39,297 nucleotides of DNA from Chitinophagales bacterium. GTDB taxonomy: Bacteria; Bacteroidota; Bacteroidia; Chitinophagales; S012-47. Below, in pieces: positions 7,745 through 10,109 of the stretch. Both the position numbers and the translations under genes were made by a program. Within the stretch, counting starts at the first letter, position 1; each line of letters opens with the position of its first letter. The notes below the pieces were generated by a model. That model saw only the letters and a list, made by a program, of their open reading frames with translations, made no database searches and was not told where the DNA came from. Location: positions 1 through 39,297 of the forward strand of contig WFPF01000010.1 in assembly GCA_015487695.1 (NCBI GenBank). The letters run 5' to 3'.

Positions 7745-7768
7745 GTACAGAATATCTTATAAAGAAAA

Positions 7769-7807
7769 GCGCCTGATGAGCCGAAGAATAGCTCAGGCGC
7801 TTTTTTT
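7769..7807 (+). terminator. Rho-independent terminator of the ATP synthase operon
   Basis: GCGCCTGA (7769-7776) pairs with TCAGGCGC (7793-7800), with extra GC pairing possible inside the loop, and is followed by seven T. It ends 12 bases before the scpB ATG. Confidence 0.85.
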
Positions 7808-7819
7808 ATTTTTATTCCC

Positions 7820-8383
7820 ATGAATCACCTGGAACGAGATATTGAAGCCATCATATTTTGCTCAGACAAACCCGTTACGGAACGCGAGCTGATTGAAGTA
7901 TTGAACAACCGGGAAGGGGAAGCCTTCATCGAAACGGAAGAGATCAGGCAGACCCTGGAAAAGCTAAAAAGAAAATACAGTGCAGATGATTACTCATTTG
8001 CACTGGTGGAGATTGGCGGGGGCTATCAGTTTCTGACCAAAGCCCGCTTTCACAAATTAATCAACCTTTTATTAAGTCAGCGCATCAGACGCAAGCTGAG
8101 TACAGCTGCTCTGGAGACGCTTGCAATTATTGCATACAAGCAGCCGGTAACCAAACAGGAGATTGAGCATATTCGGGGGGTGAGTGCCGATTACAGCATT
8201 ACCAAACTGCTGGACAAAGAGTTGATCAGCATCTCGGGCCGGGCGAGCCTGCCGGGCAAGCCCATATTGTATGGGCTGAGCGAAACGTTCATGGAATATT
8301 TTGGGATCAACTCGGTCAATGATTTACCGAAGCCCAAAGATCTTTCTTCGATTAACAGCAGTGAAATCGGAGAAAAGGAATAA
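7820..8383 (+). CDS. scpB: Segregation and condensation protein B
   Basis: ScpB binds ScpA and the SMC protein in the condensin complex that compacts and segregates the chromosome. The 187-residue product starts with the winged-helix pattern LERDIEAIIFCSDKPVTERELIEVL and has the highly conserved second winged-helix core LSTAALETLAIIAYKQPVTKQEIEHIRGV (about residues 94-122) followed by LLDKELISISGRASLPGKPILYG. The tail after residue 165 is polar and variable. It is separated from atpG by a terminator, so it should have its own promoter, although I do not see a clear one in the 12 bases that remain. Its stop codon overlaps the T-run side of a minus-strand terminator. Confidence 0.95.
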   Translation: MNHLERDIEAIIFCSDKPVTERELIEVLNNREGEAFIETEEIRQTLEKLKRKYSADDYSFALVEIGGGYQFLTKARFHKLINLLLSQRIRRKLSTAALETLAIIAYKQPVTKQEIEHIRGVSADYSITKLLDKELISISGRASLPGKPILYGLSETFMEYFGINSVNDLPKPKDLSSINSSEIGEKE

Positions 8384-8419
8384 AAAAAGCGGAAGCCGAT
8401 CTTGCGATTGACTTCCGCT
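8382..8419 (-). terminator. Rho-independent terminator, minus strand
   Basis: AGCGGAAG (8388-8395) pairs with CTTCCGCT (8412-8419); on the minus strand the stem is followed by seven T (8388-8382). There is no T run on the plus side, so it serves the minus-strand RNA rather than scpB. Confidence 0.8.
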
Positions 8420-8817
8420 CACCCTTCCGGATTCCGTAGAATCCCTGGGGTTGCAAGAAAGTTTTAAAACATTCTGCGTCACCTGGCAATTCAGGTGCCA
8501 TCGTTGCGATGAATTAACCATGGAGCGAACTCCGTGGTTTGATGGCGAAGATTTTGTGACCGAAGTCATTTCAGCTTCTCCCGAAGGATCCGCCTTTCTC
8601 TTTACCATCTGTGAGGTAAATTCTTCTGCTGCCCGAAGACAGCGCGAGAGTTGATTTTCCATGCAGGTTGATTCCCGTTTCATCCTGCCCCGTTAAGGGC
8701 AAGACTTTGGATAAATCAATTTCTCAAAGAACTTCCTCGCTTCACCACAAGATGGGGTTTTGCAACCGGCATCCTGTTTCCCTCTCTTGCTATATCAAAT
8801 GTCTAATTATCCTGCAT
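8382..8817 (-). ncRNA. Unidentified highly structured RNA, about 430 nt
   Basis: Between scpB and 8991 there is no convincing protein gene. The minus strand can fold into a dense series of hairpins. In plus coordinates, the closing arms are 8687-8690/8697-8700 or 8663-8667/8684-8688, 8628-8633/8638-8643, 8601-8606/8615-8620, 8557-8560/8565-8568, 8518-8525/8530-8537 nested inside 8497-8502/8541-8546, 8480-8485/8492-8497, and 8429-8434/8439-8444. Read on the minus strand, three loops are UUCG and one is UACG, the stable RNA tetraloops; on the plus strand they would be CGAA and CGTA, so the minus strand is the likely transcript. It ends in an intrinsic terminator (8382-8419) and has a promoter-like element at 8824-8853. 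I found none of the signatures of tmRNA (GGGGCUG start, CCA end, tag frame) or RNase P RNA (GAGGAAAGUCC). The exact 5' end is inferred from the promoter. Confidence 0.6.
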
Positions 8818-8823
8818 TTTAGC

Positions 8824-8853
8824 CAAATATTTTTCATTGGAAATACAAACAAA
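8824..8853 (-). promoter_or_regulatory. Promoter-like element for the minus-strand RNA
   Basis: On the minus strand AATATTTG (8831-8824) matches TAnnTTTG in seven of eight positions, with TTTG (8853-8850) 18 bases upstream as the -33 element. Transcription would begin near 8817. Confidence 0.45.
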
Positions 8854-8940
8854 ATATGAACAGCAATTCACATACTTATCCACGGGGTTTTCAACGAAAA
8901 AGAAGGCGGCTATGTGTAAAAGCCCCGGATTTTGCAATAT

Positions 8941-8971
8941 TTCGCATGCAAATTGAAACTACGTAGCTTTG
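8941..8971 (+). promoter_or_regulatory. Bacteroidota-type promoter of the C1 peptidase gene
   Basis: TAGCTTTG at 8964-8971 fits the -7 consensus exactly, and TTCG at 8941-8944 is 19 bases upstream (three of four for TTTG). The ATG at 8991 is 19 bases downstream, which implies a very short leader. Confidence 0.6.
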
Positions 8972-8990
8972 TTTCACTAATTTGATGACT

Positions 8991-10109
8991 ATGAAAATTT
9001 ACTTTCTCACAATTATTTACCTCGGATTTTCCCTTTTTTCGAAAATTCAGGCACAAAATTTACCTTCCGGAGCTGCCTTTGATTTTAAAATCAGCATCGA
9101 AAACGGAGCGACCAGCGTAAAGAACCAGGAAAGAAGTGGTACCTGCTGGAGTTTTTCTACGGTTTCTTTCCTCGAGTCAGAGATGATACGCACAGGGGGC
9201 AAGGCCATCGACCTTTCTGAGTTGTTCATTGTAAATGGTATTTACCGTGATAAAGCGGAGAATTACATATTGAGGCAGGGCGATGCCGGCTTCAGTGAGG
9301 GCGCACTGTCGCATGATGTAATCAATGGCTACAAAAAGTATGGTATCGTTCCGCAGGATGTGTACAGCGGATTGCCTTCCGGCAGCGAGACCATTGATCA
9401 CAGCGAGCTGGTGGCTGCCATCGGAGGCATGCTGGACGGTATCTTAAAAAACAAAGGGGGAGTGTACTGGCGGGATGCAACGGAAGCACTGCTCGATGTA
9501 TATATGGGGCCAGTCCCTGCCACGTTTAATTATGAAGGAAAGGAATATACAGCAAAGAGCTTTGCAGAAAAAGTAGTTCGGCTCCGGCCCGGGGACTACA
9601 TTGAAATATCGTCCTTTACCCATGTGCCGCTTTACGAATCTTTTGTACTGGAAGTCCCCGACAATTTTTCGAGTGGCAGATATTTTAATGTGAAGCTCGA
9701 TGAAATGGTGGAGACGGTTAGGCAGGCCCTTGCGAAAGGCTATACGGTTGTTTGGGATTGTGATGTGAGTGAAAAAGGATTTAACCCGCGGGAGGGATAT
9801 GCCATTATTCCCGATCCGGCCGGGGGCAGCAGAAACGGTCTTCCTGTCGAAATGAATGTGACACCCGCCATGCGTCAGGCAGCCTATGAGCGTTTTGAAA
9901 CCACGGATGATCATCTGATGCACATTATCGGGATGGCCAAGGACAAAAACGGCAATGAGTATTTTATAGTGAAGAATTCCTGGGGCGAAGTAGGTCCCTT
10001 TGAAGGATACCTCTATGCCTCCATCCCTTATTTCAAGATGAAAACCCTCGGCATTATGCTTCATAAGGATGCCGTACCGGAATCCATAGCCGGCAAATTA
10101 TTTAAGTAA
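8991..10109 (+). CDS. Secreted C1-type (bleomycin hydrolase/aminopeptidase C-like) cysteine peptidase
   Basis: The 372-residue protein starts with a signal peptide (MKIYFLTIIYLGFSLFSKIQAQ), so it acts in the periplasm or outside. The papain-fold active site is complete: the oxyanion Gln and catalytic Cys in VKNQERSGTCWSFS (Cys about 52), the His in DDHLMHIIG (about 308) and the Asn in IVKNSWG (about 329). The order and the HLM motif fit the C1B (bleomycin hydrolase, PepC) group, which are usually cytosolic, so the signal peptide marks it as one of the exported Bacteroidota versions. In-frame starts exist at TTG 8982 and ATG 8985. I prefer ATG 8991 because the signal peptide begins there and the promoter lies so close. 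A DUF2911 lipoprotein gene follows after 12 bases, probably in the same transcript. Confidence 0.88.
   Translation: MKIYFLTIIYLGFSLFSKIQAQNLPSGAAFDFKISIENGATSVKNQERSGTCWSFSTVSFLESEMIRTGGKAIDLSELFIVNGIYRDKAENYILRQGDAGFSEGALSHDVINGYKKYGIVPQDVYSGLPSGSETIDHSELVAAIGGMLDGILKNKGGVYWRDATEALLDVYMGPVPATFNYEGKEYTAKSFAEKVVRLRPGDYIEISSFTHVPLYESFVLEVPDNFSSGRYFNVKLDEMVETVRQALAKGYTVVWDCDVSEKGFNPREGYAIIPDPAGGSRNGLPVEMNVTPAMRQAAYERFETTDDHLMHIIGMAKDKNGNEYFIVKNSWGEVGPFEGYLYASIPYFKMKTLGIMLHKDAVPESIAGKLFK

Follow-up and report, generated by a model that had tools for sequence, protein, structure and literature searches.

Bacteria have few large structured RNAs with no assigned role, and the ones that have been studied so far proved to be ribozymes, RNP cores or RNA-only complexes. 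OLE, ROOL and GOLLD, the closest described systems, each have their own gene and a large, elaborate and conserved structure, and their function is poorly understood (PMC12286853). The RNA described here, encoded in a 39,297-nucleotide stretch of DNA from a Chitinophagales bacterium (contig WFPF01000010.1, hereafter the window), resembles them in these respects. It is smaller, however (~435 nt, compared to roughly 600 to over 800 nt), and lies among housekeeping chromosomal genes, whereas ROOL and GOLLD occur in phage or tRNA islands (PMC12286853). Unlike all three, it is known only from one Bacteroidota family so far. Neither the window nor the homologues of the RNA contain an Rfam covariance match to OLE, ROOL or GOLLD.

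The original prediction was that an unrecognised structured RNA is encoded downstream of scpB. Covariation with a close and with a distant relative, conserved synteny, a promoter block, a terminator and the lack of an Rfam match all bear it out. Covarying conserved secondary structure, by which a large structured bacterial noncoding RNA gene is recognized, is found here. The locus, on the minus strand at ~8382-8819, almost certainly makes an RNA of ~435 nt which is folded elaborately and kept in at least two genera. Judging from the sequence, the existence of a structured RNA gene is hardly in doubt, and the RNA very likely represents a new family. The whole reading, that of a free-standing RNA gene of its own lineage-restricted family whose product serves as a stable scaffold in trans, has a probability of about 0.6.

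The locus and the predicted fold

The gene scpB (PF04079) occupies positions 7820-8383 and the ORF of a C1-type peptidase begins at ~8982-8988. The gap of roughly 600 bases described originally is therefore real (from the end of scpB at 8383 to ~8988), and inspection of ORFs and Pfam matches in this interval revealed no protein gene. The closest named relatives of scpB are from Saprospiraceae and other Bacteroidota, which makes Chitinophagales the probable order.

The minus strand of 8370-8830 is predicted to fold at −172.4 kcal/mol, compared to −126.8 (sd 6.1) for shuffled sequences (z −7.47; none of 100 shuffles equals it). The local hairpins reported earlier are all present in the sequence, as arms of a larger, predicted multibranched fold which is closed by long-range stems. 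The count of one UACG loop (hairpin P11, 8421-8451) stands, but up to four UUCG loops are found rather than three (P7, 8628-8643; P8a, 8573-8594; P8b, 8557-8568; P9, 8516-8539), two of which rest on a sub-fold of equal energy.

Two homologous loci are available for comparison, one in a genome of the same genus (G001) and one in a genome of another genus within the family (G003). Stem P1 (8782-8790 with 8453-8461) closes the body of the fold (8453-8790) and continues in the pairing of 8775-8780 with 8466-8471 (probability 0.91-0.99 in both same-genus sequences), and the closing stems of G003 are topologically equivalent to P1. P2 (8756-8767), which alignment and pairing both support, is a 4-bp hairpin with a GNRA loop (GCAA, or GAAA in G003) within the best-conserved stretch, AACAGnnnnCCGnUUGnAAAAnC. 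The predicted long-range stem P3 joins 8741-8755 to 8498-8513 (probability 0.97-0.99). P7 is a 6-bp hairpin, 100% paired in the three sequences, with double changes at three pairs and an ACCG loop in G003. P9 has two compensatory double changes when the window is compared with G001. P10 (8480-8497) is a 6-bp hairpin with a probability of 1.00 in the window and in G001, and a hairpin occupies the same place in G003. P11 stands between the body and the terminator (probability 0.96-1.00).

One arrangement of these elements probably appears twice. Module A (8664-8705) consists of a 10-bp tetraloop hairpin (P5, 8682-8705), GAAA (8678-8681), a 4-bp hairpin (P6, 8664-8677) and CA. P5 is paired in all three sequences, across which seven of its ten pairs are changed on both sides. 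Module B (8557-8594), in the 3' half, has the same layout: P8a, GAAA (8569-8572), the 4-bp P8b and CA. It belongs to alternative folds, of equal energy in the window and, in G003, 0.7 kcal/mol higher than the minimum, and is less certain than module A because the P8 hairpins are improbable in G001 (0.01-0.07). A module made of a tetraloop hairpin, GAAA, a 4-bp hairpin and CA is thus common to both genera, and it is probably used twice.

The promoter-like element expected at the other end of the RNA is present, as a conserved block (8821-8900, minus strand) which differs from G001 at one position in 80; the 141 bp at 8860-9000 contain 30 mismatches, nearly all beyond 8897. The consensus of the Bacteroidota −7 box is TAnnTTTG (PMC9723704). 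The candidate −7 box in the block, AATATTTG (8824-8831), has one mismatch to it in both genera and is by itself a weak indication; a TTG lies 18 bp from it, at 8850-8852. Transcription from this block would start at ~8819, run through the multibranched fold on the minus strand and stop at an intrinsic terminator at the end of scpB. The terminator with a T run on the minus strand was found as foreseen: at 8382-8420, an 11-bp stem followed by T7 overlaps the scpB stop codon (probability 0.98 in the fold). The segment 8384-8430 is without mismatch to G001, and G003 has an equivalent hairpin and T7. A generic terminator scan did not flag 8382-8420, although the terminator is plain in sequence and fold; the probable reason is that another hairpin, with an internal mismatch, is contained in the 11-bp stem.

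Conservation of the fold in two relatives

Aligning the interval with related genomes had been proposed as a way to find covarying pairs, and compensatory changes are indeed seen in both the close and the distant relative. In G001, the interval is 93% identical (32 substitutions) and the gene order is the same. To score these 32 substitutions, we used the structure predicted for the window by itself; for the null, each substitution was moved to a random position carrying the same base (20,000 random placements). Two pairs are broken, compared to 11.4 expected (sd 2.0), and five pairs have double compensatory changes, compared to 0.36 expected; neither value was reached in the 20,000 placements. 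Nine single changes retain pairing. When the window and G001 are folded independently, 144 of ~152 pairs are identical. The folding energy of G001 is −166.6 and that of the window −165.6 (−168.3 with a slightly different T/U energy convention), compared to −146.9 for the mean random mutant. In the core of 123 pairs, 99.2% of the cells pair, compared to 37-49% when the partners are slid, a control which favours the structure because the structure came from the window; the mutant null ignores the relative's fold.

The divergence from G001 is 7% in the RNA, 14% in scpB DNA and 17% in peptidase DNA, next to 1/80 in the block at 8821-8900. The changes in scpB, 10/5/65 by codon position, have the usual third-position excess. 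At the level of the sequence, these substitution patterns show that selection maintains the RNA fold, and not a protein.

The scpB of G003 is 61-62% identical to that of the window. The homologue of the RNA occupies the corresponding site: on one side of its noncoding stretch are scpB and an additional ORF, on the other the peptidase homologue. The additional ORF (L042 898-1568), which intervenes between scpB and the RNA, appears to resemble DNA alkylation repair proteins. Only about half of the letters match the window, but the helices follow in the same order, from the closing stems through the small GNRA hairpin and the long stem to the 10-bp tetraloop hairpin, the GAAA, the 4-bp and 6-bp hairpins and, finally, the terminator. 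The minus strand of the G003 stretch folds at z −5.0. With a fold that is kept while half of the letters have changed, such an RNA offers a definite target for probing, deletion and pull-down of partners.

The alignment with G003 includes a stretch of 152 columns without internal gap, and the pair counts use this gapless alignment only, since MAFFT of shorter pieces misaligned G003. Across P2, P5 and P7 in the three sequences, two of which are close, 60 of 60 cells are paired and 11 of 20 pairs are changed on both sides, which none of 500 shuffles matches. Model R1, built without G003 and run with filters off on 1 kb of the G003 locus, places its top match (6.1 bits) at the colinear position, on the P5-GAAA-P6 module; with default filters it finds no match at this locus. 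The match of model R2 in G003 is not independent, because G003 went into that model. In G003, P6 and the inner stems are offset by one or two positions relative to the window, which supports the topology rather than column-by-column covariation.

Alternative readings and possible function

Most likely, the RNA would be a stable scaffold working in trans, either for a partner or for itself. This function is a guess, somewhat less probable than its opposite, and no dedicated protein partner is apparent among the adjacent genes, scpB and the C1 peptidase gene. The hairpin-GAAA-hairpin-CA modules and the GNRA-capped arm could dock on each other or on a partner in the manner of other ornate RNAs. 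It is a tentative idea, a little weaker still, that the RNA belongs to a new ornate class, an RNA-only or RNA-protein machine with a repeated hairpin-GAAA-hairpin-CA module in one Bacteroidota lineage. A function as a leader is unlikely because the minus strand has no gene downstream of the RNA, and regulation of scpB through convergent transcription cannot be general because another gene intervenes in G003.

The RNA could instead be a trans-acting antisense regulatory sRNA, with a stable body and a single-stranded 5' leader or junctions that pair with target mRNAs. Like such sRNAs, the RNA has a promoter-like block and an intrinsic terminator of its own, and the 5' segment of ~30 nt is predicted to be weakly structured. 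Yet conservation is mostly in the paired, structured parts, ~435 nt is long for an RNA of this type, and the 5' leader differs between the window and G003. This reading has perhaps one chance in five.

It is improbable that the RNA is a divergent form of one of the large RNAs already described (RNase P RNA, tmRNA, 6S RNA, a group I or II intron, a retron or another ncRNA), even if its size range and complexity are compatible with one. Searching all families of Rfam 15 with cmscan, as the original prediction had suggested, gave no match for the window or the homologues, none going beyond chance even at E values up to 10. RNase P RNA and tmRNA are similar in size (~350-400 nt) and have a compact multi-helix fold, but the locus has no covariance match to either. 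Both had been set aside from the start, correctly, as they are encoded at other loci of the genome (G000): RNase P RNA (RF00010) at C94 with 252 bits and tmRNA (RF00023) at C91 with 125.6 bits, the window having no RNase P RNA match and no tmRNA by Rfam or ARAGORN. The 6S RNA model (RF00013) finds no match in the genome, which is a weak test since the model also misses the Bacteroides control, but 6S RNA is one long hairpin with an open central bubble whereas the fold of the present RNA is multibranched. The adjacent genes include no intron, RT or Cas gene, and the RNA is single-copy in its genome. A full-text literature search, covering few subscription papers, returned surveys of structured RNAs from bacteria and studies of OLE, ROOL and GOLLD, and no description of an RNA between scpB and the peptidase gene.

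A resemblance to the boxA-bearing rRNA leaders had also been proposed. The nine letters GUUCUUUGA are shared with them, and TCAAAGAAC, their complement, is indeed at 8724-8732. The reading as a boxA element fails: the letters GUUCUUU are inside helix P4 in the window but in the outermost stem in G003, and boxA is rejected because these letters are not positionally conserved in the homologue.

The interval might produce no RNA, the structure being that of DNA hairpins or a product of chance between convergent or divergent genes. The plus strand of 8370-8830 also folds well, as hairpin-rich DNA would, but less strongly than the minus strand (z −4.96 vs z −7.47). After eight one-sided changes in G001, pairing survives only on the minus strand, as G-U, and the promoter-like block and the terminator share the same reading direction. 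These observations leave this reading very little probability.

The minus-strand ORF of 119 aa at 8324-8683, which would be a small protein gene and whose frame is still open in G001, is refuted as a coding gene by 13 nonsynonymous vs 3 synonymous changes (4/11/5 by codon position), the absence of a Pfam match and the absence of a matching long frame in G003.

A free-standing gene for a structured RNA outside the catalogued families is an unexplored RNA gene. It also shows that lineage-restricted ornate RNAs can occur among housekeeping genes, where annotation based on Rfam shows a blank gap.

Distribution and neighbouring signals

R2 was applied to 398 order-level and 395 class-level genomes (some shared; ~760 distinct by estimate), and matches are convincing only in G000, G001 and G003. 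Of the weak matches in other genomes of the order, the best dozen were inspected, and each of them falls within or overlaps a long open frame, as expected from chance. At the class level, three weak matches were obtained in the 395 genomes (E 0.014-0.045 per genome). In the fourth genome from this family, which is 89% complete, no match is convincing and the peptidase is also absent. More widespread, diverged relatives are possible because the large searches had stricter filters and G003 is invisible to the two-sequence model.

The scpB loci of 80 other Bacteroidota gave no R1 match, and the strongest-folding gaps at such loci, among those inspected, are tRNAs or unrelated sequences. In other families, the gaps preceding C1 peptidase genes were also considered, and the two longest of them are unrelated. 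A candidate homologue in G102 is a chance match within a ribulose-phosphate epimerase-like gene. The RNA was not found in phage and plasmid records at blastn sensitivity; the conserved 23-mer pattern occurs in 23 viral contigs, which is about the number expected by chance according to our own estimate, with no convincing model match.

Upstream of the RNA promoter, at 8876-8921, are the DnaA-box-like 9-mers TTTTACACA (minus strand) and TTATCCACG (plus strand), with counterparts in G001 and G003 (TTTTGCACA, TTATGCACA). Their number is within chance and their placement recurs; they might regulate the RNA. An adjacent oriC, which these 9-mers brought to mind, was rejected: the GC skew keeps its sign here and box counts are at chance level.

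Upstream of scpB, a plain intrinsic terminator (a hairpin then a T run, 7768-7810) follows an atpG-like ORF. On the plus strand, right before the start of the C1 peptidase, TAGCTTTG (8965-8972) fits the TAnnTTTG −7 box and is present in G001 too; from its sequence, the peptidase gene seems to be served by a promoter of its own, other than the block of the RNA.
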